A stretch of 64,000 bases of DNA from a virus. The stretch is taken from IMG/VR virus record IMGVR_UViG_3300042562_000747, positions 19,318 through 83,317 of that record. One strand, given 5' to 3'. Shown here one piece after another: positions 361 through 17,181 of this stretch. Under the pieces are notes generated by a model, which made no database searches, was not told the origin of the DNA, and saw nothing but the letters and a program-made list of their open reading frames with translations. Position numbers and translations under genes: made by a program. Numbering within the stretch: position 1 is the stretch's first letter; each line of letters starts with the position of its first letter.

Positions 361-1329
361 TTAAAATGTTTGTGCGTATCCTAACGGAAATCCATTTCTA
401 AATTCAGATGCCATTCTAGGAATCAATACCTGATAGGTTTTCATTAATTCTATAATACCATCATCTAATGTGTATTTTGGTTTCCAACCGGTTGCTTCTA
501 TTTTTGCATTAGATACAATATAATCTCTTTTATCCGGGTCTTCGTAGTAATCATTATATGATATTGCAAAGTCTGGAATATATTTTTGAATAGTTTCTAA
601 TAATTCTTGTTTAGTTAAATTTGCGTTACTTAATCCAACATTATAAACATTATGTCTCATTTTATCATAATTATTTAATGCCCATAAGAATACATTTGCC
701 ACATCTTGAATATGAATAAAGTTTCTCTTAAAATGTTTTTCAAATACGGTTATGTATTTATCTGTCATTGCTTTGTATACAAATTCATTAACTAATAAAT
801 CAGTTCTCATTCTTGGTGATGTACCAAACACAGTTGCTAATCTAAAAATTATTGCTGAACTACATTCTAATAGTAATTTTTCTGCTGCACATTTACTTTC
901 ACCATAAACTGAAATAGGATTTAAAGGTGATTCTTCGGTACATTCTGTTTGTCCTTCACCGATACCATATCCACTATTTGTATTTGGATATAATATAATT
1001 TGTTCATCAGTAATTGTATCTAATATAGTTTCTATTTGAGTAAAGTTTACTTCCCATGCTAACTTAGGGTCTTTAGCACAAGCAGGAAAACCTACAATTG
1101 CGGCTAATGGAATAATAACATCATGTATTCCTACTTCATGTCTTAATAATCTTTCATTACGAACATCACCATATATAAAATTATATTTTTTATTTGTTGT
1201 AAATTGTAATGGAGAAATTTGATTGAATGATAAGTTATCTATGACAGTAACACTATGTCCTGCGTTTAACATCTTTTCGGTAATTACTGAACCTAAATAA
1301 CCTGCACCACCTGTAATTAATATTTTCAT
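361..1329 (-). CDS. NAD-dependent epimerase/dehydratase (extended SDR)
   Basis: A 322-residue nucleotide-sugar epimerase/dehydratase of normal family length. The N-terminal Rossmann motif TGGAGYLG (6-13) binds NAD(P); the active site shows S119 in NTNSGYG and the YxxxK pair Y142/K146 in VYGESK. Members interconvert or dehydrate NDP-sugars in the cytoplasm. Its ATG overlaps the stop of the LamG gene upstream by one base (TAATG), so the two are probably translationally coupled. Its place among glycosyltransferases suggests it makes a sugar donor for them; which sugar cannot be told from sequence alone. A second, divergent epimerase is at 46165-47157. Confidence 0.88.
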   Translation of the reverse strand: MKILITGGAGYLGSVITEKMLNAGHSVTVIDNLSFNQISPLQFTTNKKYNFIYGDVRNERLLRHEVGIHDVIIPLAAIVGFPACAKDPKLAWEVNFTQIETILDTITDEQIILYPNTNSGYGIGEGQTECTEESPLNPISVYGESKCAAEKLLLECSSAIIFRLATVFGTSPRMRTDLLVNEFVYKAMTDKYITVFEKHFKRNFIHIQDVANVFLWALNNYDKMRHNVYNVGLSNANLTKQELLETIQKYIPDFAISYNDYYEDPDKRDYIVSNAKIEATGWKPKYTLDDGIIELMKTYQVLIPRMASEFRNGFPLGYAQTF

Positions 1330-2039
1330 TATATTAGAGTTTGTTTTATATTTGTAATATCTGCCGTTTCTAATGAGTTTCCTGCTAATAATTTATTTAA
1401 TTTAATTTGAATTGTTTTATTCATAAATTCTTCAATATATGCAAAATTACCATTACCACTTTTATCCCACACTTTAAATCTATTTACTTTTGTAAAATCT
1501 AAATTAGTAACTATACCTTCATTGTTTGAAACTATAAATTCAGATATTATACCATTAAAATAATATCTTTCATTAGTATCTTTTAAAAATGGATTCATTA
1601 CACCAATCCATAGTGGTACATGTGCATAATCGCAAGTTTTATATTTACATTTAACCATTCGTTTTTCACCATTTACTGAAACCAAAAACATACTGATTCC
1701 TTCTACATTTTGAATTTGATAAATAACTTTATATTCTTTATCATATTCAAAATCAAATTCTTCAATATGCATATCATCCGAAAAATTACCACTTTCAGGA
1801 TTTGCAGTAAATAATACACATTTTAATTTATTATTATCAATATAAACCCCACTATTTACTATTCCAGGTTTTGCAAAAATATATTGTTTTTTTCCATTAT
1901 TTTGTGCAATAAATGTACAATTTATAATTACAGAATCGTTAAACACCGTTCCCAATAAATTAGGTCGTTTGGATGTATTGTGTTTAGATTCGTTCCATAC
2001 ACTGCAACAAAAAGTATCTTTAAATTCAAATAGTTCCAT
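1329..2039 (-). CDS. Stand-alone LamG/concanavalin A-like domain protein
   Basis: A 236-residue protein that looks like a free-standing LamG (Laminin_G_3-like) jelly roll. The segment KPGIVNSGVYI (about 57-67) parallels the PG-x-N-x-GIS strand of the LamG insertions in the three GT7 proteins upstream, and the pattern LWIGV...YYFNGIISEFIVSNNE (about 143-172) parallels their YIG...F-x-G-x-IA-x-F strands. No catalytic motif or signal peptide is visible. It is coupled by one-base overlaps to the radical SAM gene upstream and the epimerase downstream. Probably carbohydrate- or protein-binding; the ligand is unknown. Confidence 0.55.
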   Translation of the reverse strand: MELFEFKDTFCCSVWNESKHNTSKRPNLLGTVFNDSVIINCTFIAQNNGKKQYIFAKPGIVNSGVYIDNNKLKCVLFTANPESGNFSDDMHIEEFDFEYDKEYKVIYQIQNVEGISMFLVSVNGEKRMVKCKYKTCDYAHVPLWIGVMNPFLKDTNERYYFNGIISEFIVSNNEGIVTNLDFTKVNRFKVWDKSGNGNFAYIEEFMNKTIQIKLNKLLAGNSLETADITNIKQTLI

Positions 2040-3430
2040 TATTTCATTTCTTTACATTTGTTATAAAAATCAGCCAATTCAGGGAATGTTTTTTCAAAAT
2101 TAGTTCCCCTTCTTTTATCATGCTCACTAAAAAATTTATAAAAATCTTTTCTATGTGCCATTCTATCTTCATCATCGATTGATATAAAATAATCATAAAT
2201 TCGTCTAATCTTAACGATTTCAACATCACTAAACCCATAACAATTTACATCATCCCTTAATAATTCATAAAATTCAACTAATTGTGCTTGTTTAAATATT
2301 TCGTCCGACCATTCTTTATCTAATATTCTAATAGATTGATGGTTTGGATATCTTAAATATGAACTATCTAATAATAATGGTTGTTTATAATATCTTAATG
2401 CGTTTGTGTGTTTTGCTTTTAGTGAATATACATCATCAATTAATTTACGATACGATGGTACTGATAATGCGTTGTATGTACTCATTATATCTACTGTCAG
2501 TCTTGGGATATACTGGCATAAATCATCTATTCTATCCATCAATTGATTATATACTAAACCATTTCTAACGTACTCAGCCTGTGTACCATATCCATCACAA
2601 CTTGTGTAAATAATTAATTCTTTAACTAATCCTCGATCGGATATAATTTTAAATTTTTCTCTGAATTTTTTATATAACGAATCGGGTACACCTAAATTTG
2701 AATTGATACTTAAACATAAATTCTTATTTGGATTTGGAGAATCAATGATATAATCTAATACTTTCATAGTATCTTTATGCATCATAGGTTCACCACCTGT
2801 GATTCTAAATGTATATAAATCTTGATACAACTCCGGCCACCATTTCCAAAATGCTTCTACATATGGATTAAATTCACTTTGTGGGATTGGTATTCTACCA
2901 CTACTTACAAAATGTTCTAATCCATTAAAATTATCAGATGTTGGGTATCCACCATGTTGTTCAATTTCTTCCATCCATTTTGTTGAGAATGGTGGTGCAC
3001 AATATGAACATTTAAAATTACAAGCATTACTGAATGAAACTTCTACATACGAAGGATTTATATTATCTCTCCAATTACTTTGTTTAATCTTTTCTAAATG
3101 TGGAAATGCCCATGGTTCAGACGATTTAAATGTTCTATCACTAAATTGATTTGAACTATCCTCTACACCCCAACAATAATCACATTCTGCCGGCTTCCCA
3201 CCTTCTAACATTTCTCTTCTTTTTTGTTTTTTGAAGCGTGTATTATGAAGTGCGGAAGGGTCTCTATTTAATTCAGTTGTTGATACCTGATGTGTCATCG
3301 GATGGTGACAACTATGATTATGTCCAATATGTAAATGCATTGTTACTTGCATCCATTTTGCTAAACAGAATCCTACTCCTACCGCATTTAATTGTTCTCT
3401 TACACTTTCAAATTTTTCGTAACTAGCCAT
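2039..3430 (-). CDS. Radical SAM enzyme with N-terminal Cys/His segment
   Basis: A 463-residue protein. The radical SAM [4Fe-4S] loop C137-x3-C141-x2-C144 is in SNACNFKCSYC, and the SAM-binding GGEP is at 212-215. Before the barrel lies a segment with CHHP (41-44) and C83-x2-C86-W, shared with the truncated paralogue at 1-359; it could hold an extra metal or cluster. Such SPASM/twitch-like proteins are often seen in marine phages without a known substrate. The gene overlaps the first GT7-LamG gene and the LamG gene by one base each, tying it to glycan or surface modification. Peptide or sugar radical chemistry are both possible. Confidence 0.8.
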   Translation of the reverse strand: MASYEKFESVREQLNAVGVGFCLAKWMQVTMHLHIGHNHSCHHPMTHQVSTTELNRDPSALHNTRFKKQKRREMLEGGKPAECDYCWGVEDSSNQFSDRTFKSSEPWAFPHLEKIKQSNWRDNINPSYVEVSFSNACNFKCSYCAPPFSTKWMEEIEQHGGYPTSDNFNGLEHFVSSGRIPIPQSEFNPYVEAFWKWWPELYQDLYTFRITGGEPMMHKDTMKVLDYIIDSPNPNKNLCLSINSNLGVPDSLYKKFREKFKIISDRGLVKELIIYTSCDGYGTQAEYVRNGLVYNQLMDRIDDLCQYIPRLTVDIMSTYNALSVPSYRKLIDDVYSLKAKHTNALRYYKQPLLLDSSYLRYPNHQSIRILDKEWSDEIFKQAQLVEFYELLRDDVNCYGFSDVEIVKIRRIYDYFISIDDEDRMAHRKDFYKFFSEHDKRRGTNFEKTFPELADFYNKCKEMK

Positions 3431-4872
3431 TATGCTTTACAATTTATTATTACAGAATTATTACCTATTTCATCTACTGATATGAGTTCGTATTCTAAAC
3501 TATTCATACCATCGTTTTTCCAATTATACTTACCTTGTTGCATTTCTAATATATATCTTCTTTCATTTCTTGCAGTTGTTTCACCCTTTGCCCATTTATC
3601 TACACCACCAACTGTTATTAGACCTTCGGTTTGGTGTGGTAAACATTCAAACTTACCATCTCTACGGAAAGGTAAGATAGTATTATTAACTTTCAAAGTA
3701 TTTTCTTCTTTTATTTCAACATCATTTATTTCGCCATGATTTCCGTTATCACTTAAATCGTTTAATACATTTCCATTTATTGAATTAAAATCATAATGTG
3801 CCACCATATCATTCGGAAATTCCATTATTTCATTTTCTGATAAACATCTATCCCACATCATAACTTTTGCAATATCACCTTTAAACCATCTATTAACCTC
3901 ATCTACTCCTACCGATGGTGTTGTTCCAATATAGTATGGTTCTGTTCCATATCTTTTTAAATACCCACTATATTCTAATGGTGATGTTGCACCTGTTCCA
4001 AATCTTGCATCACTTTTTTTACCATTGATGTGAAGTGAAATTAATTTATTATCATCATCAACTGTCAATGTTACCCAACTCCATTGTTGTTCGTATCTCT
4101 TTGCCCATAGGTATAAAAATTCTCTTTCATTATTCCATAACATAGAAGTAAATGCTCTACTATTATTATACGATATACCCCAATCATGTCCCGGTCTGCG
4201 AAGGATTGGATATTCACAAAATCTTCTATCTGCATCTCCAATTAAATAAATAGGAACTTTCTCCTCTTGTTGATGTGCTCTTACTAATATTGAAACCGTA
4301 TGTGAACGTGAGCATAAATTTCTAATTGAACGAGATGGTTCTATTTTAACATATGATTTTAATCCATCAAAATATCCATACTTTTGGTTGGTTATATCCG
4401 GTAAATAATGTTGTTCTGCATTACCGGTCAATACACATCTCCAAAAAAGGTCATCATCTTCCATACCCCAATCCCAATAATCGTTTGAGTAACCATTTGT
4501 TGCTCCAACTTGTTCTTTTGTAAACAATACTGCACCACCAAAATACTCCTCATATTTAAGGTTATAATCTGTTTGAGATATTCTTACTGCTAAATGCTTA
4601 GGGTTCTCAGGATTGAACGTATAATCACAAGAACTATCCTCTGGTACCATATCTATATCATGCCATACAATATAATCACATCCATCATCAAATGCGTGTT
4701 TCGCTGCAATGTTTTTCATCTTACCTCTATTGAATAACTTATCATCACATTGATGCGCAAAATATATTTTATGTTCAATACCTTGTTCTTCTAAGAATTT
4801 ATGAACTCTAGGTGAAAACTCTTTTAAATGAGCTTCTCTATTTCTATATGGTACACATACTCCTAACTTCAT
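3430..4872 (-). CDS. GT7-type glycosyltransferase with LamG domain nested inside (copy A)
   Basis: A 480-residue protein. Residues 1-150 read as the core of the beta-1,4-galactosyltransferase family (GT7): VPYRNR (8-13), FNRGK (48-52), the metal-binding DxD in HDIDMVP (71-77), YFGG (110-113) and the acceptor/catalytic WDWGMEDDD (133-141). About 165-395 is a LamG-like jelly roll (RRPGHDWGIS, PYYIGTTPSVG, FKGDIAKVMMWDR). The protein then returns to GT7 at about 400-480, with LPH (metal-ligand histidine region) and DGMNSL (454-459), which matches the DGLNSL near the end of animal enzymes. The LamG therefore interrupts the catalytic domain rather than following it. Start is coupled to copy B by a 4-nt ATGA overlap. 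Confidence 0.82.
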   Translation of the reverse strand: MKLGVCVPYRNREAHLKEFSPRVHKFLEEQGIEHKIYFAHQCDDKLFNRGKMKNIAAKHAFDDGCDYIVWHDIDMVPEDSSCDYTFNPENPKHLAVRISQTDYNLKYEEYFGGAVLFTKEQVGATNGYSNDYWDWGMEDDDLFWRCVLTGNAEQHYLPDITNQKYGYFDGLKSYVKIEPSRSIRNLCSRSHTVSILVRAHQQEEKVPIYLIGDADRRFCEYPILRRPGHDWGISYNNSRAFTSMLWNNEREFLYLWAKRYEQQWSWVTLTVDDDNKLISLHINGKKSDARFGTGATSPLEYSGYLKRYGTEPYYIGTTPSVGVDEVNRWFKGDIAKVMMWDRCLSENEIMEFPNDMVAHYDFNSINGNVLNDLSDNGNHGEINDVEIKEENTLKVNNTILPFRRDGKFECLPHQTEGLITVGGVDKWAKGETTARNERRYILEMQQGKYNWKNDGMNSLEYELISVDEIGNNSVIINCKA

Positions 4873-6281
4873 AGTTTAACTGAAATTTTTATTGCTTTTT
4901 CTGAAAGTTTGTTACTTTCTATTTCTTTATATATGCAGGTGTTTAATCCATCTATTGATAAATCTACTATATTACCTTTCATTTCGTTGTAAAATCTTTC
5001 TTGATTTTTTCTTGTTTCTGAATGTACCCAATTATTCCCAATTGTTGAATTTGAACTATGTTTTAATGTTTTAAATTTTCCTTCTCGTCTAATTGGAACT
5101 ATAATTTCTGTTTCAAATTTATCTACCAATATGTTATCTTCACAATTGTAAATAAATCCATTATTTTTATTGCCACTTAAATCTTGTATAATATCACCTT
5201 TAAAATTTTTAAAATCATAATAACATTTTAAGTATTTTGATTTATCATATTTTCTATAATCATTAATTATAGATTTGTATAATGAATTTTCATATACTTC
5301 TTTTATGTTATCTAATTCTAATACAATATTCCAAATAGCAAACTCAGCAATTAATCCTTTAAAATAAAATTGTTTAGCATCTAATGTTGGATTACCTACC
5401 CCAATATAAAAATAATCATTATCATATTCATATATTTGTTCTTTTAATTCTTTGGTATCGATTAGTTCACCATTCATATAAAAAGAAAATATATCATCTT
5501 CTTTTGTAATTACTAAGTGTGACCATACTTCACCAATGATATCACTTTGAATAGATGTTGAAATATCATCTTTAGTCCAAATCTCACCTTTGTATCGTTT
5601 GAATGATGTGTATGATATACCTGTGTTTCTACCTGGTATTGAAGTAATCTGATATTCATCAAACTGCTCTTTTAATGAAGTTTTACTATCTTCTGGTTTT
5701 ACTTTAATTGATATTGTAAAATCACCATTAAAAATAGATGCTAGATTTTTGTAAGGAATTTTAATGTAAGATTCTTTACCATCAAATTTAAAATAATTTA
5801 TTAAATAGTTTTTATCAGGTATACCTACTGAAATTTTATCCAATGGTATGTTTCTCTGAATACATCTATATAATAAATCATCATCTTCAAATCCCCATCC
5901 CCAATACTCATTAGAATATCCATTTACTAATTTGTAATCATGCACATTAAATAACGTAACACCACCAAAGTAATCAATGAATGGTATATCTTTATTAATT
6001 TTAGATACTAAATGAATTGGTGTATCCGGATAAGAATAATCTACTCCCTTTAAAGGTAACATATCTACATCGTGTAATGCAAAATAATCAAACCCTTCTT
6101 TAATTGCAATCCTAGCTCCTACGTTTAAAAGTTTACCTCTATTAAAAGGCTTATCATCACTCTGTTCAATGACAAAGATTTTATAATCGTAATCCTTTAA
6201 ATACTCTTGCATATAAGGAACGAATACTTCTAAATGAGATTTTCTGTCTCTATATGGAACTATTATTGCTAATTTTTTCAT
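4869..6281 (-). CDS. GT7-type glycosyltransferase with LamG domain nested inside (copy B)
   Basis: A 470-residue paralogue of copies A and C and the one closest to the canonical family: VPYRDR (9-14), FNRGK (46-50), DVDMLP (71-76), YFGG (104-107) and WGWGFEDDD (127-135) are all intact. The LamG insertion runs from about 155 to 385 (SIPGRNTGIS, FYIGVGNPTL, FKGLIAEFAIW). GT7 resumes with RREGKFKTLKH and the helix ETRKNQERF, then DGLNT close to the C-terminus. The expected chemistry is retaining-metal, inverting transfer of a hexose from a UDP-sugar to a sugar acceptor; the LamG may choose the acceptor or anchor the enzyme. No transmembrane anchor is present, unlike animal Golgi enzymes. Confidence 0.84.
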   Translation of the reverse strand: MKKLAIIVPYRDRKSHLEVFVPYMQEYLKDYDYKIFVIEQSDDKPFNRGKLLNVGARIAIKEGFDYFALHDVDMLPLKGVDYSYPDTPIHLVSKINKDIPFIDYFGGVTLFNVHDYKLVNGYSNEYWGWGFEDDDLLYRCIQRNIPLDKISVGIPDKNYLINYFKFDGKESYIKIPYKNLASIFNGDFTISIKVKPEDSKTSLKEQFDEYQITSIPGRNTGISYTSFKRYKGEIWTKDDISTSIQSDIIGEVWSHLVITKEDDIFSFYMNGELIDTKELKEQIYEYDNDYFYIGVGNPTLDAKQFYFKGLIAEFAIWNIVLELDNIKEVYENSLYKSIINDYRKYDKSKYLKCYYDFKNFKGDIIQDLSGNKNNGFIYNCEDNILVDKFETEIIVPIRREGKFKTLKHSSNSTIGNNWVHSETRKNQERFYNEMKGNIVDLSIDGLNTCIYKEIESNKLSEKAIKISVKL

Positions 6282-6502
6282 TAAGCTTCTCTTTCGGACT
6301 CTTTATCTGGTCTTGTAGATGTTCCAACTGCTTTGGTTTTAGCAATATTGTAAAACTCATTCAAATACCATTCTAATCTTGTAGACCATCCTTTGGTATC
6401 TAAATCGTATAACCAATCACTAATGTCTTGTGTAGAGTGTGCAATACTTTCTAATGCTTTTACACCTCTTTCTTCGGTTGTTAATTCTTTTTTCTCTGCC
6501 AT
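6281..6502 (-). CDS. Small hypothetical protein (73 aa)
   Basis: Not recognised. A soluble, charged 73-residue protein with a predicted helical middle (WLYDLDTKGWSTRLEWYL) and an acidic/basic tail. Its stop overlaps the ATG-side junction of copy B by one base and it lies between copies B and C of the GT7-LamG genes, so it is co-translated with them. No cysteines, signal peptide or catalytic motif. Confidence 0.6.
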   Translation of the reverse strand: MAEKKELTTEERGVKALESIAHSTQDISDWLYDLDTKGWSTRLEWYLNEFYNIAKTKAVGTSTRPDKESEREA

Positions 6503-6514
6503 TTTATTTGTTTT

Positions 6515-6820
6515 TTAATAATTTAATAATTTAGTTATAACTTCTGCAAATGCTTTATTTTCATGTCCATCTTCCCAAACTTTATCTTTAATTTGTTTTA
6601 ATTTTTCTCTTTCTATTACAAATTTATCATATTGAATTACATAATCAAATGTATTAGAACCATCTTTATGATACATCTTCATTAATCCCTCAATATTTAA
6701 AATCAATTTAGGTAGAAAAAATCCAAAGTCTCCTTTTGTTTCTTTCATCACTTCTAATTCCTGTGCAATTGCTTCTAATTTTTTTACAAATGCCTCATTT
6801 TTTAATAACTTGTTTATCAT
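6515..6820 (-). CDS. Small helical hypothetical protein (101 aa)
   Basis: Not recognised. Mostly helical, lysine/glutamate-rich protein (for example KLEAIAQELEVMKETKGD). Two ATGs are possible: 6838, or 6820, which overlaps the stop of GT7-LamG copy C as ATGA. I prefer 6820 because that junction type recurs throughout this block. The C-terminus VITKLLNY is followed after 12 nt by the next small gene. It may be an accessory to the GT7 enzymes by position only. Confidence 0.55.
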   Translation of the reverse strand: MINKLLKNEAFVKKLEAIAQELEVMKETKGDFGFFLPKLILNIEGLMKMYHKDGSNTFDYVIQYDKFVIEREKLKQIKDKVWEDGHENKAFAEVITKLLNY

Positions 6821-8298
6821 AAAATTATTTTTAACCATTCGGTTTGTTTATCAAATGTTTCTTGTTTAATTAATTTAAATTTTAAATTATTTAATCCTAT
6901 CTTAGTAGTAGAAAACTTTTCAGTTAATATATCATTAAAAAATATTAATCCATTTTCAATAATATCAGGATCAAATGATTTAAATCGATTAACAATATCG
7001 GTATCATTCTCATGTGGTAATGATTGAAAGTTTGCTTCAATTCTTTTTGGTAATTTTATTTTAGAAGTTTTTATTATTTCATCGTTTAAAAGATATTCTG
7101 AATAATTACTACCATGTGTGTTATACAATGTAGAATGATTGTGATGCTTACTACCATCCATTACAAAGTTTTTATAAAAATTATTAAACTGATATTTTAA
7201 CGTTGGTTCAAATTGTGTTTGTAACTTTCTATTATTAATCAATCCATTTAAATATAAATTTTTGATTTCCGAATCACTTAGTGTATAATCAAACATATAA
7301 AGATTAGCCAATTTACCTCTAAACATATTTTTACCATGTGAACCACATCCAATATAAATTTTATCTTTTGTATAATCCCACAATGGTAATTCAAATTGTG
7401 TTAGTGTATCTACTTTTTTATTTTCTTCAAACGTATCTACAATCAATCTTAATTTATTTGAATCAAAATCAACATTACATACAATATGATGCCATTGATT
7501 TGGTTTTAATTTTCTATAATTAAAATAATATTTATTATCTTTTCCCCAAAAATTAAATCGTAATGTGTTGTCTGGTTGAATTGAAATACCACTATTGAAT
7601 CCAGGAAATGAAACTACATATTGTTCCTCTTTAACAAAATCATCAAAGTTAATCCAAGCTGATATTGTAAATGAATCGGTTGTAATTCCTTTTAAGAATT
7701 TATTTGGTAATACTTCCATTTGAGTTTCACCATCAAATTTTAAATACGATACTTTTTCTTTTTTAATTGAATCTGTAATTCTTAGTCTATCTATTTCATA
7801 TTCAGTATCTACTCTTGGGTAAATGTATTCTGAATCTAATTTAACACCGGCTTTTTCCATTCTAAATAATAAATCTAAATCAGCATATCCCCATCCATAA
7901 TATTCATTTGAATATCCATTTACTAAAATAAAATCTTCTTTTGGAATTATTAATACACCACCTAAATATTGTAAATAAGGTAACGTATTTTCATGTACTT
8001 GCACTCGCGTTGCTAAATGTGTTGGATATTGTTTATAAGAATAATCGGCCTTATCGGATGATGGTAACATATCAACATCGTGAAAACAAAAATAATCATA
8101 TTCATCTTTTAGTAAATGAAATGCCGAATTACATAACTTACCATAATTAAAGGGTTTATCATCCGATTGTTCAATTACAAATATTTTATAATCAATATTT
8201 TTATCTTTTAAAAACGATTGTATATGTGGCAAGAAAATATCGAGATGTTCTCTCCTATCTCTATATGGTACTACAATTGCTAATTTATGATTACTCAT
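6817..8298 (-). CDS. GT7-type glycosyltransferase with nested LamG, divergent catalytic motif (copy C)
   Basis: A 493-residue third paralogue. The start chosen is the ATG at 8298 (MSNHKLAIVVPYRDR), which aligns with copies A and B; an upstream TTG adds only five residues. VPYRDR, the DxD in HDVDMLP and YLGG remain, but FNRGK is FNYGK, the EDDD motif is ADLD (YGWGYADLDLLFR), and the C-terminal DGLN is IGLN. In the GT7 family the second and third residues of EDDD contact the reaction centre and acceptor, so acceptor choice may have changed or activity been lost. The LamG insertion (SFPGFNSGIS, IYIGCGSHGK, FRGKLANLYMF) is intact and lies in the same place as in its paralogues. Confidence 0.8.
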   Translation of the reverse strand: MSNHKLAIVVPYRDRREHLDIFLPHIQSFLKDKNIDYKIFVIEQSDDKPFNYGKLCNSAFHLLKDEYDYFCFHDVDMLPSSDKADYSYKQYPTHLATRVQVHENTLPYLQYLGGVLIIPKEDFILVNGYSNEYYGWGYADLDLLFRMEKAGVKLDSEYIYPRVDTEYEIDRLRITDSIKKEKVSYLKFDGETQMEVLPNKFLKGITTDSFTISAWINFDDFVKEEQYVVSFPGFNSGISIQPDNTLRFNFWGKDNKYYFNYRKLKPNQWHHIVCNVDFDSNKLRLIVDTFEENKKVDTLTQFELPLWDYTKDKIYIGCGSHGKNMFRGKLANLYMFDYTLSDSEIKNLYLNGLINNRKLQTQFEPTLKYQFNNFYKNFVMDGSKHHNHSTLYNTHGSNYSEYLLNDEIIKTSKIKLPKRIEANFQSLPHENDTDIVNRFKSFDPDIIENGLIFFNDILTEKFSTTKIGLNNLKFKLIKQETFDKQTEWLKIIL

Positions 8299-8333
8299 AT
8301 CTAAATGTAACAAATTTTATTTATAAAACCAAA

Positions 8334-9173
8334 TTAAACTGACTGAATTATTTTGAAGATTATCCGCCATAAACTATAACCCAATACACCCGCATCTTCA
8401 ATCATAAATCTCTCATCATAAATATCAATTTTAAAATTATTTGATTTTAATGCATCATACATTATTTGATATTCTTTTGAATAGGCGTAATCTTTTTTGA
8501 TATCTGCCACTGCTTTAATTCGTTCTACACAAGTTGAATCCCATTTAAAATGATGAACTTGTACATTGTATTCATTTGTTGGTGCTATTAATGGATGATT
8601 CCAACCTTGCCATTTCCAAGTTGTTTGTCCATCTATTATTGCATAGTGTTGACCTGGTGTAATTTCTACCCATCCTTTCATTATACACATTTTATTTGGA
8701 CATGCATTACTCAATGGATAACGAAAGCATCCTGCTAATGGAAATTGTTCAAATATATTTATATCTTCTTTTAATTCTGGAAATTCACCATCCCTACCAA
8801 TTCTGTCAACAAATCCACCTCTAACCATTACCCATCCATTCGATTCACATTCATCTATAATTGTATTTAAATCTTTTGAATATACATGAAACTCGTCATC
8901 ATCTGATACTATCCACCAATCATCAGGATACATCATTTTTATTTCATTATACAATTTAGTTACATATTCCCAATTGAATTTTTCTTTATAAACTCTCTTT
9001 ACTATTTTTGCCGTTGGAAATTGTGAAACAATATCATTTACTGCTTCGTATAAACTTTTTCCTTCCCATTCATATACCACCACATACATTTCATCTACTA
9101 AATCTTTATAGTGATTTAGCATATGTTTTAATGTTGATGTTCTACTACCTGTAACTGTAACTAATCTTTTCAT
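8334..9173 (-). CDS. Glycosyltransferase, GT-A type (GT2/GT92-like)
   Basis: A 279-residue protein beginning with a short Rossmann-like strand (RLVTVTGSRTSTL) and carrying DDDEF at 91-95 after WWIVS, the expected place of the metal-binding DxD of GT-A enzymes. A later stretch HYAIIDGQTTW and HHFKWDSTC resembles the acceptor side of GT92/GT2 proteins found in other phages and capsule loci. It is followed by the methyltransferase start junction at 9173 (one-base overlap). The donor sugar is not predictable. Confidence 0.7.
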   Translation of the reverse strand: MKRLVTVTGSRTSTLKHMLNHYKDLVDEMYVVVYEWEGKSLYEAVNDIVSQFPTAKIVKRVYKEKFNWEYVTKLYNEIKMMYPDDWWIVSDDDEFHVYSKDLNTIIDECESNGWVMVRGGFVDRIGRDGEFPELKEDINIFEQFPLAGCFRYPLSNACPNKMCIMKGWVEITPGQHYAIIDGQTTWKWQGWNHPLIAPTNEYNVQVHHFKWDSTCVERIKAVADIKKDYAYSKEYQIMYDALKSNNFKIDIYDERFMIEDAGVLGYSLWRIIFKIIQSV

Positions 9174-9928
9174 TATTTTTTTCTTACTAATGTTAATCCT
9201 GTTGATGCCGGTTTGTTTTTTTGAATACCAAAGTTAAATAAATCAAACACTTGCCATTTATCTGTATCTATTTCTTTTGCCAATTGTATAGGTCCTTTCC
9301 AATCATCAAAATCACCCCTATCTTTAACCTCATTTGTCACTATGTATTTATCTGCATAATTAGGGTCAGTATCGTGAATTGATATAATACCATTTTCACT
9401 CATTAACTGAGAATATAAGTCAAAATCTTCTTTTACATTTTCATAACTATGTCCTGCATCAATATGCAAATAATCAATCTTAATATCATTTAATATAAAG
9501 AAATTATGAAACGCATTTGCAGTTGTATCGTTTATAATTCTTGGTGAAAACAATCTTCTAAAAAATGATTCTTCTTTTAACCAATTCACATTACCACCAA
9601 TACCATTTGCTGCATCTACAATATATGTAGTACCAATATCACCCCAACTTTTATCATTATTACCTTCAAATATATTTTGAGAATGCAAATCCATTTTAGC
9701 CTGCGTCATAATTCTAGGTATAAATCCGCCACCACTACCTAAACATACACATACTTTTGCTCTCATATATTGAATCAACGAATAAATAATTAATCCATCA
9801 CCCAAATGGTCATCCGTTGCACCATGTGACCAACGATATGGAACATTAATTAAAACCTGGTCTCCATACTCATCTATTTCTTGATTATTAGAAATAAATT
9901 CTTTTATGTAATCTTTATTTGTTATCAT
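9173..9928 (-). CDS. Class I SAM-dependent methyltransferase
   Basis: A 251-residue protein of the Methyltransf_24/cephalosporin hydroxylase-like group. The glycine-rich SAM loop is CLGSGGG (62-68); DYLHIDAGHSYE (152-163) is the typical DAGHxYE segment of the group and IISIHDTDP (181-189) the following strand. Such enzymes in polysaccharide loci usually O-methylate sugars. The gene overlaps both neighbours, placing it with the glycosyltransferases, so sugar methylation is the simplest reading; no experimental support. Confidence 0.75.
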   Translation of the reverse strand: MITNKDYIKEFISNNQEIDEYGDQVLINVPYRWSHGATDDHLGDGLIIYSLIQYMRAKVCVCLGSGGGFIPRIMTQAKMDLHSQNIFEGNNDKSWGDIGTTYIVDAANGIGGNVNWLKEESFFRRLFSPRIINDTTANAFHNFFILNDIKIDYLHIDAGHSYENVKEDFDLYSQLMSENGIISIHDTDPNYADKYIVTNEVKDRGDFDDWKGPIQLAKEIDTDKWQVFDLFNFGIQKNKPASTGLTLVRKK

Positions 9929-10703
9929 TTAATAATTTATTTTTATGATATAACTGAACATTTTTTAATGTATCTTCGTTTATTTTATAAAATGTGTTTG
10001 GCATTAATATTGGTTTTATTTTATCAATATACCAATGATAATATACAATTGAATTAAAATGTAAATCGTATTTTGAAATATAAGCTGAGTATAAATTATC
10101 TGAATCTTTGTTTAGATAGTTTTCTAACATTCCATCTAATTTAGAATCATTATTAGTTAAAAAATATTCTTTTATTTTATTTACTTCTAATTCAAAATTT
10201 ATTTCCTTTAACCCATAGTGTTTGAATATATCCTGTTGAAAAAAGAAATTAAATGAAATATTTTTTTGTTTTATAAAATTTGCTAACTCATTTATATCAT
10301 TTAATGTTTTTTTAATATATTCAAATTTGTTTAAAATTGGTTTATTTAAATCAAAATAATCATCTTGTAATTCTTTTGTTATCATTTTAGTTTTATCCAT
10401 TGATAACATATTTCTAAAAAAATAAGTAAATTGAATTCCACAATATATTAAATCTGCATCTATTCCTTTTTGTAATAATTCTTCAATTTTAGTTTTTATT
10501 CTGTCTATTATATAATGATTTCCGGCCGAAGGTCTTCCTAAATAATAAAATTTATATTCTATATTATTTTCTCGATATTCATCTTCTAAAAAATGAAACC
10601 AATTACCATTATCCATATTAATAATTTGTTCTGGTGTTTTGGTTTTTTTTAATTCATTTGTATAATAACTAAATGAATCCCCCGCTACTATTATATGTTT
10701 CAT
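9915..10703 (-). CDS. SGNH/GDSL hydrolase-like protein
   Basis: A 262-residue protein with GDSF at 8-11 right after a first strand (MKHIIVAGDS), GRPSAGN further in (the block II Gly/Asn region), and near the C-terminus DLHF with a second histidine in YYHW (D213, H215, H223), resembling the DxxH block. SGNH enzymes are esterases or acetyl-esterases, and in surface-glycan loci often act on O-acetyl groups. Spacing of the DxH block is not fully canonical, so activity is uncertain. A second SGNH protein is at 48866-49723. Confidence 0.6.
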   Translation of the reverse strand: MKHIIVAGDSFSYYTNELKKTKTPEQIINMDNGNWFHFLEDEYRENNIEYKFYYLGRPSAGNHYIIDRIKTKIEELLQKGIDADLIYCGIQFTYFFRNMLSMDKTKMITKELQDDYFDLNKPILNKFEYIKKTLNDINELANFIKQKNISFNFFFQQDIFKHYGLKEINFELEVNKIKEYFLTNNDSKLDGMLENYLNKDSDNLYSAYISKYDLHFNSIVYYHWYIDKIKPILMPNTFYKINEDTLKNVQLYHKNKLLNDNK

Positions 10704-11713
10704 TTATTTAAAATATTTGTAATTTCATATATCCATTCCTCTTTACTACTATATTGTTGTAATGCTTCTTTTAATTTAAAAAAGTTATATTGTCTTTCTA
10801 ATTCAAAATCATTACACATTATTTCATACATCTTATTAAATTCCTCTTTTGTATTTGCTCTATATTTGTAATCTATTTTAGGTAACCAAAACTTATTTAG
10901 AATTGGAAGCTTACCATAATCAATTGCGTTAAATATAGAATAACCAAATGGTTCGTTTACATAACATCCGTGAAATACCGTAAAGTCTAAGTTAAAGAAA
11001 TTTCTGTGGTTTTCCAAATTATATGGGTAGAATCTTACTTTTTTTAAATCTAAGTTTAATCCTTCTTTTAAATTTTCATATCCCATCCAATCGGTAATAG
11101 CATATCCTTTATGTTTATCTAAGAAATGAAAACACTTTCTTGTCTCACTTCTTGCCGCATATCCTATCTTATCCGTATTCCATCTATATTCTATATTATG
11201 ATTAAACTCATAGTAATTTGATATCTGAATTGTTTTTTCTTTAAAATCTGTTTGTACTAATCCATTATTACAACCAATCCAAACTATTTGTTTACATTTT
11301 TCTAATACATCCTGTTCCCATTGTAAATCCATTGTAGTAGGTAAATAAACTCTATCTAATCCTAAATCTATATTGGTGTTTATAATTTCTTTTATATAAG
11401 CGTGACAAAATATTGTATGGAATTTATGTTTGTATTCCCACAATTCATCTCTACGATAATAGTTGTTGTGTAAAAAATGTATTCTTCTACAATTTCTTAA
11501 AAGTGGTGGTATTAATAGTGGTGTTTCTTTTGAAAATACAAATTGACAAGGAATAGATGTGGGGTTAAATCCATTTGGTTTTCTACCATCAATTAATAAT
11601 ATTATTGGGTATTTTAAATATGGTACAACATTCTCTAAAAAATTATTTACCCATATATCACTACCACCCATCGGAACATTACCTGCTCCAGTCGTAACTA
11701 ATAAATCAAACAT
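10700..11713 (-). CDS. Glycosyltransferase, GT-B fold (GT4-like)
   Basis: A 337-residue protein. The N-terminus LLVTTGAGNVPMGGSDIWV resembles the acceptor-side glycine-rich start of GT4 enzymes, and EPFGYSIFNAIDYGKLPI (from residue 254) is the donor-binding E-x7-E region, with the second Glu replaced by Asn. It overlaps the SGNH gene by 4 nt. Expected to move a sugar from an NDP donor in the cytoplasm. It is the first glycosyltransferase downstream of the tail-fibre genes, so a virion or host surface glycan are both possible targets. Confidence 0.68.
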   Translation of the reverse strand: MFDLLVTTGAGNVPMGGSDIWVNNFLENVVPYLKYPIILLIDGRKPNGFNPTSIPCQFVFSKETPLLIPPLLRNCRRIHFLHNNYYRRDELWEYKHKFHTIFCHAYIKEIINTNIDLGLDRVYLPTTMDLQWEQDVLEKCKQIVWIGCNNGLVQTDFKEKTIQISNYYEFNHNIEYRWNTDKIGYAARSETRKCFHFLDKHKGYAITDWMGYENLKEGLNLDLKKVRFYPYNLENHRNFFNLDFTVFHGCYVNEPFGYSIFNAIDYGKLPILNKFWLPKIDYKYRANTKEEFNKMYEIMCNDFELERQYNFFKLKEALQQYSSKEEWIYEITNILNK

Positions 11714-11720
11714 AACTTAT

Positions 11721-11981
11721 TTATTTATAGGGTGTTTCACCTAATATTTCTACATCCCATAATGCTTTCACATCACTTAAATTAGTAATTGAACCTGAAT
11801 CAATATTCGTTGCATCTCTTAGTGCTTGTTTTTTTGCACCAATTTCTGCTGCTAATGTTGTATTTCCTACTTCTAATGCTCTCATAAATTGTACATCCAA
11901 ATCTTTAAAAATAATTTCTCTCTTTGTTCTAATTTGGGTTTTATGTACATCTAATGCTCTATTTACATTTATATTTAACAT
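11721..11981 (-). CDS. Tail (fibre) assembly chaperone-like protein
   Basis: An 86-residue protein with the pattern R-x2-R-x6-LD-x4-RA-x-E-x-G ... KKQALRD (about 18-55), which is the usual signature of small phage tail-assembly chaperones that sit next to fibre genes. It lies between the tail fibre module and the first glycosyltransferase. Expected to help trimerise or attach the fibre. The match is to a short, loose motif, so function is inferred from motif plus position. Confidence 0.5.
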   Translation of the reverse strand: MLNINVNRALDVHKTQIRTKREIIFKDLDVQFMRALEVGNTTLAAEIGAKKQALRDATNIDSGSITNLSDVKALWDVEILGETPYK

Positions 11982-11986
11982 ATTAT

Positions 11987-12274
11987 TTAATTTGTAACCC
12001 AGTCAATAAAACCGGAAGCTTTAAGTGATTTTAAAATTTTTTCATTAGTACCATACCCATCTGGATTAGAAAAGTCCGGAGCATATGCATCATGAAACAT
12101 ACTATCATATTCTATACTTTCTACTATTAAAAATGGATACGCGTTTGGTGTCACCTCTCTTGCATCCTGTACGGCATCTAATTTATTATCAGATTTAGTG
12201 GTTATAAGACTTGTACATAATTCTGATATTGTGTCTGGATGCGTGTTTGGAAATATTGTTATATATGTTTTCAT
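11987..12274 (-). CDS. Small hypothetical protein next to the tail fibre (95 aa)
   Basis: Not recognised. A 95-residue protein with no signal peptide, cysteine motif or clear repeat; the sequence is mixed alpha/beta with a C-terminal IDWVTN. It is separated by 25 nt from the tail fibre gene and by 5 nt from the chaperone-like gene, so a role in fibre assembly or attachment is the likeliest guess. Confidence 0.6.
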   Translation of the reverse strand: MKTYITIFPNTHPDTISELCTSLITTKSDNKLDAVQDAREVTPNAYPFLIVESIEYDSMFHDAYAPDFSNPDGYGTNEKILKSLKASGFIDWVTN

Positions 12275-12299
12275 TGTATTTTAATTTAAATTACTATTA

Positions 12300-15200
12300 T
12301 TATTGAATTATCATTATTGATACAAACCTATTATCCGGTGTTTCGACACCTAAATCCATAGTAAATCCTGTGTGGAATATATTACTTATACCTGCCTGTT
12401 GAAATTGTGTGGGGCCGTCATTGGTTCTATTTCCTATAAATACACTATATGTACCACCACCGGAGTATGCACCATATGAATCCATAATTGCTTCTGCAAA
12501 TGTTACTTGAAATTTACCATAACTAATTCTAGTTATACTTTCAATATTATATGCGTAAGGCCACCAAGAATCTTCGTATACACTAAATCCGGTATTAGTA
12601 TTTGGTTGAAACCATCCATATGCTCTAGTTAAATTAAATGACCGTGCATATCCACCAAAGAAAAATGAAGTAATAAAATTACCACCAGCTGCTCTATTTG
12701 CAAATGAATATTGTGCACTTCGGATATATTGTTTTTGTTTACCACTATGCCAATCATTTTTATCAGTTGCATTTAATACAACCAAAGTACCACCCATTAT
12801 ACCGGTAACTTCCGTATTTCCCTGGTCACCCAAATATTGTGGTGGAGAAGCACCATACAATGCAGGGTCATTATACATATACCAACCTGATGGCCTGATT
12901 TGTAAGTATCTATTTGTATCTTGTACAACCTGAAATCCTTGTTGGTTTATATTTGTTTTAGGCACATTGGAAATATATTGCACATTTGTTGCCGGCCAAT
13001 ATGCGTTAATTGTCAAATTTGCACCATAAGGAATATTATAAACTATATATTGTATTGTAAATCTAACAGCAACACCTGCGGTTAATAATTGGTTAGAGAA
13101 ATATGCACCTGTTCCATCTCTGTCATATTGATTACCATATGTTCCAGGTGCAAAATACGGACGACCTGCAGGTGGAGTTGCATTAACATCTGCACCTTCT
13201 ACCGGGCCTTCGATATATTCTCTACCTTCATCGTTTATTAAAGAATTACCCGCCATATCATATATGTATGCTCTTAATCCTTGATAACCACCACCAGTTC
13301 CACTACTTCCCAACCCAACATGCTTTGGAAACCAAGTTGTAAATTCATAGAATCCTGTAATAGTTGGTGTAAATACAACTTGTTGTGACCATTGTAATGA
13401 ATATGTATTAGTTCCCGCATTGTACGTTACTGCAGTATTACCACCAGATGCTGCACCATTATTATAGTAACTTGTTTGTGCAGCTTGTGCCGGTACTACA
13501 ATGTTTCCACTATCACTACCCGCTGAAGGACTTGGTAATGTTGCACTTGAATCTATTGTTACTTTATTTTGACCGGCTGAATCTTTTAATTCAATAAATC
13601 CAGTACTATATAAATAAGTTTGTGAATTTGATGAACGTAAATATCCATTACCAATTTCCCATCCTCCAATATTTCCAGATATAGTTGTTATATTTCCATT
13701 TACGGTTAGGGTATTATTTGCTGCATTAAAATTTAATTTGTTACTTAATGAAAAATAACCACCATCATTTATATAGAATCCAGTATCTGCATTATACCAA
13801 TTTCCTGCTCCTGAATATATTGCTTTGTTTAATCCACTAATTGTTAATGCACTAGTACCACCAACCTTTACTGTATTTGAAAAATACCCATCGGCTCCTG
13901 CTATAATAGGAGATACGATACTTTGTCCTGAAATTAATGTTCCCCCGCTATAAGAACCATTTGCTATATTATCTGCAATTGTTTTTGCATTTGTGTATGC
14001 TGTATTTGCTGATAAATATGCTGAATGCGAAGCGTTACTATATGCTCCTGCTGCCATTATAAATGCACTTGATGATGCATTTGTGTATGCACCACCTGCT
14101 ATTGTAAATGCGGAGGCGGATGCATTTGTGTATGCACCACCTGCCATTGTAAATGCGGAGGCGGATGCATTTGATTGTGCTGTATTTGCAGAATTAGTTG
14201 CCATTGTAAAAGCAGAGGCAGATGTTGCTGCATCACCACCGGTAACGTTAATAATACCATTTATAGTTAATACACCATTTGCCCAAGTTAAAGCATTGGT
14301 TCCAGGTCCACTTAAATAAAAGTTACCATTGTTAGCCATATAGGTTTTCCAATCAGTTCCATTGTAATATCCTAAATAAGATGAGCCTAAATATAACCCC
14401 GATGTACTACCTACCAAAACAACAGGTGGTCTATTTATTAAACCAGTTGTAGAGGTAAATATATTTGGTGCTAAAGAATTACTAACATTATTTGCTGCAT
14501 TTGAACCCGAAGTTACTGCGTTTGCAGCTGCCGTTGCAACACTACTTGTTGTTGCAGCATTTCCACCTTGAATATTAATTACACCTTGAACTTGTAATGT
14601 TCCTAATGAACTATTCCAAGCTAAAAAATTATTGTTTGAACCAGTAAGATAGAAATCACCCTGATTATCCATATATGTTTTCCAACTACTTCCACTATAA
14701 AATCCTAAATAAGTTGAACCTAAATATAATCCATTTATTGTGGATGATGTTGTTGGTGTTTTATTTAATTTACCATTTTCATCTGTAAAAATAAATTTCT
14801 CTAAATATGCGGATGCTGAATAAACTGTAAAAGATGAATTAGATACTGAACTACTAATATTTGATAAGGATGCACTTAATGATGAGGATAAAGTTGATAA
14901 TGATGTACTTACTGATGAACTTAAATTAACTACACTTCCACTTACTACATTGATAGAACTACTCAATGAACCACTTACTAAATTTATAGATGTGCTCACC
15001 GAACCACTTAATGTAGATACCGATGCACTTGTAAATAATGATGCCGTAAATGTTGATTGAGAAATACTACTACTTAAAGATGCACTTGTTGCGGCAATAC
15101 TGCTACTTACACTTTGTGATGTTGATGAAATACTACTACTAACTGATTGTGATAATGCAGTTAATGCCGCGTTTGATGATGATGCTGAACCACTAATCAA

Positions 15201-16496
15201 CGCCTGTGTTAAACTATTGCCCCCATTAAATGTTGCACTTTGTGTTACTGCAACTGGAACATAATTATTGTTTATATCATAAAATTCAAACTTAAAATTA
15301 AAAATATCATTACCTAATATAGTTGGCATTGATGTAATAAAACTAATTTCGTTTGGGGAGAATGCGGTATCTTGTGAAAGGTTTAACGATATATTTCCAA
15401 CATGCCATTGGTTTGTTCCAGATGATTGTGATAAGTATAAACTTGCAGTTGGTTCATCCTTTGGTATTTTAAATGCAGTTATAGTTGTTTCAAAGTTTTT
15501 AGTTGGAATTGAACCACTAAATGTTGTAATTGGAATTTCACCATTTTGAGTACCACTTATATACGCTACTAAATTTGTTGCACTTGAACCTGTATAAAAT
15601 ACATCTAATTGTAATTCATATGTATTTGAACTAAGTAAATTTAATGATGATGTAAAACTGAATTTACCACTACCACTTAATTGTAAACCATTTTCAACAT
15701 TGGTTGTATCTAATACGGCGTACAATGAACTTGTATTCCAAACTTTACTTAAAGTATCAGGACCAAATGTTCCTGCATTTCCAACTACACTCCCACTTAA
15801 TTCATATGTAGTTAAAAGATTTTTAGCTTCTATTGAAATATCTTGTATTAAATCATAATCCGATATATCACCTTCGGATGTTCTATATACTTTAACTCTA
15901 GCTACATCTCCGGCGAATGTATCTAATTGATTTACAGTTATACTTGCAAATGATTGTGTTACTAACGATGCTACTTTACTACCACTTACAATTGAATATA
16001 ATGGTTGTAATAATTCTGTAATTGTAACTACCGGTCTTTTTTTAAATCTTACTCTTGTAGTGTTGGATAATGCTGGATTAATATTAACTCTACCCTGCCA
16101 CTTTACATTATATTTGTTTTGCCAATCAATTGGAACATTTACATTTTTAGTATTAAGTTCACCTAAAATTGTAATTGTTGCCGGTCCAAATGCGGTTTCG
16201 GTTGGATAAACATATACTGCTACTACTTTAGAATTACCTTCATAGTATTCGTTTGGACTACCATCTGAAAATTCATGATAAACAATATTGCCAGCTGCAT
16301 CTCTAATTTGAATTTTTATTTCTGAATTCGCTTCTAATAAATCAGAACCTGCTATTAGGAATGCGTTTTTACCTCCTGAAAAAGAATCGGAGAGTTCACT
16401 TATATTAAAGTATTCTGAATTTATTGAAGTATCTGTAATTAGTGTCTGTACTAATTCTAATTTTTCTTCGGGTGCAACTTTTATATCAACGGCCAT
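12300..16496 (-). CDS. Long tail fibre / receptor-binding protein
   Basis: A 1398-residue modular fibre. Residues about 1-430 hold beta-rich domains that likely attach to the baseplate. About 439-545 is a Ser-rich, heptad-like rod (SQSVSSSI, SGSLSSSI). Two homologous modules follow (about 570-645 and 690-755), each with GLYLGS-x-YLG-x-Y-x-G-x2-WKTYM, a FYL strand and a GG-x-AA end. Then come five 15-residue repeats of the SAFTMAGGAYTNASA type (about 755-835). The C-terminal 500 residues are Gly/Tyr/Asn-rich beta structure, expected to be the host-contact head. No intramolecular chaperone motif was recognised. An ATATTTATA box lies 17 nt upstream of the ATG. Confidence 0.82.
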   Translation of the reverse strand: MAVDIKVAPEEKLELVQTLITDTSINSEYFNISELSDSFSGGKNAFLIAGSDLLEANSEIKIQIRDAAGNIVYHEFSDGSPNEYYEGNSKVVAVYVYPTETAFGPATITILGELNTKNVNVPIDWQNKYNVKWQGRVNINPALSNTTRVRFKKRPVVTITELLQPLYSIVSGSKVASLVTQSFASITVNQLDTFAGDVARVKVYRTSEGDISDYDLIQDISIEAKNLLTTYELSGSVVGNAGTFGPDTLSKVWNTSSLYAVLDTTNVENGLQLSGSGKFSFTSSLNLLSSNTYELQLDVFYTGSSATNLVAYISGTQNGEIPITTFSGSIPTKNFETTITAFKIPKDEPTASLYLSQSSGTNQWHVGNISLNLSQDTAFSPNEISFITSMPTILGNDIFNFKFEFYDINNNYVPVAVTQSATFNGGNSLTQALISGSASSSNAALTALSQSVSSSISSTSQSVSSSIAATSASLSSSISQSTFTASLFTSASVSTLSGSVSTSINLVSGSLSSSINVVSGSVVNLSSSVSTSLSTLSSSLSASLSNISSSVSNSSFTVYSASAYLEKFIFTDENGKLNKTPTTSSTINGLYLGSTYLGFYSGSSWKTYMDNQGDFYLTGSNNNFLAWNSSLGTLQVQGVINIQGGNAATTSSVATAAANAVTSGSNAANNVSNSLAPNIFTSTTGLINRPPVVLVGSTSGLYLGSSYLGYYNGTDWKTYMANNGNFYLSGPGTNALTWANGVLTINGIINVTGGDAATSASAFTMATNSANTAQSNASASAFTMAGGAYTNASASAFTIAGGAYTNASSSAFIMAAGAYSNASHSAYLSANTAYTNAKTIADNIANGSYSGGTLISGQSIVSPIIAGADGYFSNTVKVGGTSALTISGLNKAIYSGAGNWYNADTGFYINDGGYFSLSNKLNFNAANNTLTVNGNITTISGNIGGWEIGNGYLRSSNSQTYLYSTGFIELKDSAGQNKVTIDSSATLPSPSAGSDSGNIVVPAQAAQTSYYNNGAASGGNTAVTYNAGTNTYSLQWSQQVVFTPTITGFYEFTTWFPKHVGLGSSGTGGGYQGLRAYIYDMAGNSLINDEGREYIEGPVEGADVNATPPAGRPYFAPGTYGNQYDRDGTGAYFSNQLLTAGVAVRFTIQYIVYNIPYGANLTINAYWPATNVQYISNVPKTNINQQGFQVVQDTNRYLQIRPSGWYMYNDPALYGASPPQYLGDQGNTEVTGIMGGTLVVLNATDKNDWHSGKQKQYIRSAQYSFANRAAGGNFITSFFFGGYARSFNLTRAYGWFQPNTNTGFSVYEDSWWPYAYNIESITRISYGKFQVTFAEAIMDSYGAYSGGGTYSVFIGNRTNDGPTQFQQAGISNIFHTGFTMDLGVETPDNRFVSIMIIQ
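14029..14208 (-). repeat. 45-bp tandem repeat inside the tail fibre gene
   Basis: Units begin at gatgcattt at 14074, 14119 and 14164, exactly 45 bp apart; the 14074 and 14119 units are nearly identical at DNA level and their flanks are degenerate copies. Each encodes 15 residues (SAF-x-MA-x-GAY-x-NAS). In-frame length means copy-number change would lengthen or shorten the fibre without a frameshift. Confidence 0.85.
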
Positions 16497-16513
16497 TTAT
16501 AGAATGTATTTCT

Positions 16514-16522
16514 TATAAATAT
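16514..16522 (-). promoter_or_regulatory. ATATTTATA box (candidate late promoter), tail fibre
   Basis: Coding-strand ATATTTATA, 17 nt before the tail-fibre ATG. One of seven identical boxes upstream of genes, mostly virion genes, in this window. Confidence 0.4.
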
Positions 16523-16527
16523 TCCAT

Positions 16528-17169
16528 TTATTTATTATTATATATAAATGAAGTTAAAATAGCAAATCGTTTAAAGTTATCATCTAACACTTCGGTTACT
16601 TCGTGTTTTGGATTTGCGGTTGTAAAATCTAATACTGCCAATGCACCAAACTCTGGTTTTACTACAACATTACCATTTATAACTAATTCACCACCATACC
16701 CATCCTTATAATCTTCATTTAAATAAAGTAAAATATTACATATTTTATTTTTACTAATACCATCTTGATGTTGATTTATATAACATTGTTTATTATACAT
16801 AGTATAAGATAAATGACAATTTTCTAAATCGTATAAATCAGCAGGATAACATTCTTGTATTAAACTTCTAAAAACTTCATCTTTAATAAATTCTACTTCA
16901 TCTCTATCTAAAAATTTATATAAATTATGATTAGAATACCAGAATTGCCATTTCTTTAATGGTGCATATTCTTTTTTTAATTCCTCTAATACTTCAAAAT
17001 CGGTATCATGTGTGTAACCCGTTTCACCACAAGACGTATGTGTTGCATCTCTAAATTCTATATCTTTTATTTTACTAAAAATTTGTTTTAGTTTTTCAGT
17101 TATAGTAGGATTTATTGTTGTTGTATAATATCCTTTACTTGTTAATTGATTGTGTATTTTTTCATTCAT
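16528..17169 (-). CDS. 2OG-Fe(II) oxygenase, prolyl 4-hydroxylase-like
   Basis: A 213-residue protein with the double-stranded beta-helix iron site H134-x-D136 (INQHQDG), distal H189 (NPKHEV) and the 2-oxoglutarate-binding R201 (FKRFAIL). The stretch YGGELVINGNVVVKPEFGALAVLD is typical of P4H-like proteins. It should hydroxylate a protein side chain or small molecule using Fe(II), O2 and 2-oxoglutarate. It lies between the recombination fusion and the tail fibre, so a virion protein is one candidate substrate. At least three other 2OG oxygenases are present in the window. Confidence 0.85.
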   Translation of the reverse strand: MNEKIHNQLTSKGYYTTTINPTITEKLKQIFSKIKDIEFRDATHTSCGETGYTHDTDFEVLEELKKEYAPLKKWQFWYSNHNLYKFLDRDEVEFIKDEVFRSLIQECYPADLYDLENCHLSYTMYNKQCYINQHQDGISKNKICNILLYLNEDYKDGYGGELVINGNVVVKPEFGALAVLDFTTANPKHEVTEVLDDNFKRFAILTSFIYNNK

Positions 17170-17181
17170 AGAAATAAATAT

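Follow-up and report, generated by a model that had tools for sequence, protein, structure and literature searches.

A LamG domain is, with near certainty, inserted within the GT7 glycosyltransferase domain in the products of three adjacent genes of an uncultured virus, a new arrangement of domains within a known family of enzymes that is conserved and apparently functional. The window, i.e., the whole 64,000-nucleotide stretch that was analyzed, comprises bases 19318 to 83317 of an 83,317-base virus record. Genes for a baseplate wedge protein, a primase, an SbcCD-type nuclease, and a Nol-like carbamoyltransferase indicate that the source virus is a tailed phage, probably T4-like. The nuclease gene (17182 to 20328) encodes a 1048-aa fused SbcCD, with residues 2 to 302 SbcD-like and 349 to 1047 SbcC-like, and fusions of similar length are also found in L192, L195, and L199. 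The carbamoyltransferase gene (39863 to 41578; PHROG E value, 2e-121) is another possible glycan-modifying gene of the phage. The three nested GT7 copies, C, B, and A, are adjacent on the minus strand at the low-coordinate end of the window, where a sequence-only reading had placed their ORFs, and the region contains the following features:

361 to 1329, minus strand: NAD-dependent sugar epimerase/dehydratase (best NCBIfam model, galE, E value of 3e-29, below cut-off)
1329 to 2039, minus strand: stand-alone LamG-like protein; relatives match the inserted-LamG profile, the protein itself has no Pfam match
2039 to 3430, minus strand: twitch-domain radical SAM protein (NF033640), conserved, downstream of copy A
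3430 to 4872, minus strand: copy A, 480 aa; GT7 core, residues 1 to 155; LamG, about 166 to 395; GT7 C-terminal part, about 399 to 480; key catalytic residues retained
4869 to 6281, minus strand: copy B, 470 aa; GT7 core, residues 1 to 147; LamG, about 158 to 388; GT7 C-terminal part, 391 to 470; C-terminal metal-binding His, H408; structure predicted
6515 to 6838, minus strand: 107-aa protein between C and B, function not assigned, in closest relatives only
6817 to 8298, minus strand: copy C, 493 aa; GT7-LamG-GT7 nesting as in A and B; acceptor-side motif degenerate
8334 to 9173, minus strand: GT2-like glycosyltransferase (weak Pfam match), directly upstream of the GT7 genes
9173 to 9928, minus strand: methyltransferase (Methyltransf_24), cassette member
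10700 to 11713, minus strand: possible glycosyltransferase, named from context, without family match; conserved first cassette gene in many loci
12300 to 16496, minus strand: long tail-fiber-like protein upstream of the cassette; homologues in L195 and L199 have a C-terminal Peptidase_S74 fiber chaperone domain

Each copy consists of a beta-1,4-galactosyltransferase-type GT7 core, a complete LamG jelly roll, and approximately 80 residues completing the GT7 domain. Pfam matches in A, B, and C run in the order Glyco_transf_7N, Glyco_transf_7C, and Laminin_G_3 (E values of 1e-18 to 4e-25, 1e-14 to 1e-18, and 1e-10 to 4e-21, respectively), every one above the curated cut-off, which bears out the domain assignments previously made from the sequence alone. 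The jelly-roll motifs then described, PG-x3-GIS, YIG, and F-x-G-x-(I/L)A, were likewise found in all three copies. The WGWG-x-EDDD motif ascribed to every copy is exact in B and reads WDWGMEDDD in A, but copy C has YGWGYADLD and thus no EDDD.

Un-nested bacterial GT7 proteins without LamG (L086 to L103), obtained from a one-genome-per-species scan, were used as the reference for the domain boundaries. In these proteins, the core continues directly into R-x-G-x-(Y/F)-x-x-L-x-H, a helix, DGL, and two strands. In the phage proteins, the final 80 residues correspond to exactly this segment, positions 160 to 235 of the un-nested GT7 profile (hhalign, 98%; E values of 2.9e-13 and 2.1e-13), and the LamG stretch has no match to that profile (hhalign, 0.1%). 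The un-nested profile spans B4GalT1 end to end (E value, 3e-54); this bacterial bridge is needed because the direct match of the C-terminal piece to PDB sequences is weak, with B4GalT1 at an E value of about 0.9. The C-terminal LxH plus (D/I)G(L/M)N segment of A, B, and C is homologous to the un-nested GT7 C terminus, as had been proposed, but the DGLN-like ending reads IGLN in copy C. This homology rules out a LamG appended at the protein end and upholds the insertion argued for in the sequence-only reading; the outcome which that reading had said would count against it, i.e., that the C-terminal 80 residues are not GT7, is contradicted by the hhalign match. LamG enters after the xED helix and before the strand bearing the C-terminal metal-binding His. 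No described example of a nested GT7-LamG was found among the structures and models searched or in the papers covered, which took in few subscription journals and no preprints.

Structure prediction gave a concordant picture. In an AlphaFold2 model of copy B (pLDDT, 94.3; pTM, 0.88), the LamG is followed by strands at residues 391 to 395 and 402 to 405, a helix at 421 to 434, and strands at 452 to 460 and 463 to 469. The order of C-terminal GT7 elements is identical in the model of an un-nested GT7 (strand, 161 to 169; helix, 180 to 192; strands, 209 to 217 and 220 to 226), and the C-terminal segment, with its metal-binding His strand, helix, DGLN, and two strands, is thereby predicted to complete the GT7 fold. 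Aligned with B4GalT1, the model of one un-nested bacterial GT7 matches about 235 columns, with a TM score of up to 0.85. The LamG of the copy B model is mostly beta, with fold matches to 4dqa and pentraxins. When the nested model was used in Foldseek, it matched B4GalT1 over the first 154 columns only, or LamG alone, since local alignments do not bridge the insertion.

A search with copy B retrieved 73 viral loci, which together with the window hold 165 ORFs ordered as GT7, LamG, and C terminus; reduction at 85% identity left 88 nonredundant proteins. The recurrence of this order in 165 ORFs excludes chance, and an assembly-error fusion or other artifact is ruled out by the identical architecture in dozens of independent contigs. 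A wider search for viral GT7 proteins returned two size classes, un-nested mostly at 208 to 259 aa and nested at 455 to 568 aa, and a few longer un-nested proteins have an N-terminal extension in place of LamG. In viral contigs (L147, L165, L170, L175, and L142), an un-nested GT7 is fused behind an N-terminal domain of about 230 residues that appears by eye to be another glycosyltransferase. The cultured phages searched yielded no relative. Order C-B-A on a common strand is kept in 73/73 loci. Three tandem copies, as first read from the window, are present there, but all three paralogues occur in only 28/73 loci, C being usually absent, and two or more in 70/73, absences that are upper bounds because contig ends cut some loci. 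In L053 (5465 to 6875), copy A lies in two overlapping frames, GT7-LamG and then the C-terminal part, reflecting a frameshift or a sequencing error. The G009 record (behind L060) has, at 74028 to 80095, more LamG-like matches near a nested GT7, some with internal stop codons, and these may represent LamG gene expansion or decay.

Separate trees were built for the two parts of the protein. A GT7-part tree of 131 sequences, built by a quick method, separates nested from un-nested proteins in two changes, which is compatible with a single origin of nesting, and places A, B, and C in separate groups. The LamG tree separates A, B, C, and the stand-alone LamGs in four changes (minimum, three), with the stand-alone LamGs forming one clade distinct from the inserted ones. 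Exchange of LamG between paralogues was considered and rejected, as A, B, and C stay almost separate in the LamG tree. With matching groups in both trees, LamG was probably inserted once, ahead of the duplications, and the paralogues probably never swapped it later. The tandem paralogues of the sequence-only reading are ancient, orthologous clades. Among orthologues, LamG identity is 30 to 41% compared to 57 to 65% for the core; this faster divergence fits changing ligands but also weaker constraint.

The phage setting that had been assumed for the architecture is supported by the 73 viral loci but is not exclusive, as nested GT7 genes also occur in bacteria, in a pair of genomes from a single family, one of them titled Fibrobacter succinogenes (L083:5944-7434 and L082:409-1884). 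The two proteins are 78% identical to each other and about 38% identical to A, and in the GT7-part tree the bacterial nested GT7 joins clade A. Its neighbors in L083 are chromosomal in kind, including an SNF2 helicase, a kinase, GT2 enzymes, ABC exporters, an HlyD-like protein, a papain-like DUF1796 protein, and an acetyltransferase. From this gene content, the bacterial nested GT7 may serve an exported product, with L083 possibly carrying a glycosylated-export operon.

Residues were mapped onto B4GalT1 via profile alignments, with residue roles taken from PMC6198961, and sequences were allotted to clade A, B, or C according to which window copy they matched best. The DxD, the Trp-loop Trp, the Glu-Asp pair, and the C-terminal metal-binding His are all present in clade A (28/28) and clade B (40/40), and the donor-site Tyr is present in 28/28 and 39/40, respectively. 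Across the nested proteins, the Tyr289 equivalent is retained in 85/88, which suggests UDP-Gal as the donor. The DxD and C-terminal metal-binding His are found in all three window copies. Clade C has lost the equivalent of bovine D319, the residue after the catalytic Asp, in 20/20 sequences, and its Trp314 and Glu317 equivalents are often replaced; the catalytic base Asp is retained in 18/20, the DxD in 17 to 18/20, and the C-terminal His in 15/20. Judged from these losses, copy C is possibly an enzyme of altered specificity or an inactive partner (pseudoenzyme).

The genes around the nested copies are themselves conserved. A GT2-like gene directly precedes the first GT7 copy in 64/73 loci, a methyltransferase lies upstream of the GT7 copies in 61/73, and 65/73 have a twitch radical SAM gene downstream; this set flanks no un-nested viral GT7 gene among those examined. 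The upstream 20 kb was read in eight other records. A homologue of the window fiber adjoins the cassette in three of the eight, and a very long protein (1378 to 2801 aa) lies within a few kilobases in four more; the stretch read in the L197 record contained no long fiber. Four of the long proteins scanned have a Peptidase_S74 fiber chaperone domain near the C terminus, and 3/3 checked against PHROGs match tail-fiber families. The dedicated system suggested at the outset takes the form of a conserved cassette beside a tail fiber, carried by uncultured aquatic phages with two or three nested GT7 enzymes each. Counts of N-x-S/T sequons in the fibers equal the chance expectation, and no fiber-glycosylation signature was found. 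Downstream of the window, the same phage has a large sugar island (L077, positions 6200 to 19700) that looks like a phage-encoded sugar pathway, with an RmlC-type enzyme and several other sugar epimerases, two TPP-enzyme halves, two 2OG oxygenases, and another twitch radical SAM protein. A 1385-aa protein on the minus strand of L077 (1935 to 6089, in record bases before the window) has a start that is nucleotidyltransferase-like by eye (VVYGGRFQPFHKGHKK), followed by a long part without assignment.

We favor, at roughly even chances, a reading in which A and B are galactosyltransferases, LamG recruits the acceptor, and the glycan is linked to the tail-fiber module, likely the fiber itself. As metal-dependent inverting GT7 transferases, A and B would transfer galactose from UDP-Gal to an acceptor glycan or glycoprotein. 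In B4GalT1, the lid follows the insertion point and carries the metal ligands Met340 and His343 (human numbering) and an acceptor-contacting helix (PMC6198961), and the hypervariable regions of GT-A enzymes, including the C-terminal one, bear family-specific acceptor determinants (PMC7185993, PMC7948508). Given these roles, an insertion at the base of the lid puts LamG in a good position for presenting an acceptor. Anchored at the base of the mobile lid (hypervariable region 3), where the acceptor site is built, LamG would bind the acceptor and position it over the active site, with the binding part free to change fast while the catalytic core stays constant. The GT7 set, with the GT2-like enzyme, the methyltransferase, and the radical SAM protein, would then produce a phage-encoded glycan on the tail-fiber module, most likely on the fiber.

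Gene order is the sole reason for favoring the fiber, and the glycan target is the weakest step of the proposal. A live rival, though on balance an unlikely one, is that the same enzymes, with the same role for LamG, re-decorate host-surface glycans during infection and so block superinfection or change receptors. The downstream sugar island, with its RmlC, epimerases, TPP enzymes, and 2OG oxygenases, could supply either target, and the company of ABC exporters and GT2 enzymes around the cellular homologue suggests surface or exported glycans; however, no flippase or polymerase genes were seen in the cassette, and the close linkage to the fiber gene better fits modification of the virion. LamG domains can also have structural or oligomerization-mediating roles. 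A pentraxin-like module of this kind, in enzymes that use ordinary acceptors, would agree with the presence of pentraxins among the solved structures nearest to LamG in profile and fold and with the failure to find a conserved ligand site in LamG, but we think it improbable given an insertion in the very region that forms the acceptor site of GT7 enzymes. More doubtful again is a scheme in which LamG is an acceptor-gated switch, its binding of a ligand causing the GT7 lid to close, and in which A, B, and degenerate C assemble into a hetero-complex that makes a defined glycan on the tail fiber of the phage itself. Finally, that the nested proteins are former enzymes, now virion or binding proteins with a GT7 scaffold displaying LamG, is hardly credible, as the clade C losses (D319 equivalent in 20/20, often those of Trp314 and Glu317, in some members the DxD or C-terminal His) are countered by DxD, Trp, ED, and C-terminal His in every A and B sequence.

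Compared to known systems, the phage proteins share a homologous core with the CAZy GT7 enzymes B4GalT1 and B4GalT7 (PF13733 plus PF02709; PDB profile E value of about 1e-54 for B4GalT1), including the DxD, donor-site Tyr, Trp loop, xED, C-terminal His, and DGLN-type C terminus, but differ by the LamG of about 230 residues between the xED helix and the C-terminal His strand. Unlike animal GT7 enzymes, the nested ORFs are phage encoded and begin at the catalytic core, without a stem or membrane anchor. The nearest un-inserted relatives are the un-nested bacterial and viral GT7 proteins (e.g., L086 to L103 and L105 to L182), which have the same core and C-terminal segment without LamG. The inserted LamG itself matches, by profile and fold, Laminin_G_3 (PF13385) and pentraxin-type jelly rolls (4dqa, pentraxins, and sialidase lectin domains), and no match obtained lies within a glycosyltransferase. 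The GT27 polypeptide GalNAc-transferases are GT-A enzymes with a C-terminal ricin-type lectin domain that aids acceptor choice; that lectin has a different fold and is appended, whereas the LamG of nested GT7 proteins is inserted in the catalytic domain.

Overall, an entire binding domain sits inside a GT-A catalytic domain exactly where acceptor sites are elaborated, and this nesting apparently arose once and then persisted through duplications across many phages. The nesting provides a test case from nature for the idea that GT-A enzymes choose their acceptors through a module distinct from catalysis. It also supplies a natural scaffold for enzymes whose acceptor-binding part can be exchanged and points toward fiber-linked glycans in widespread uncultured phages.
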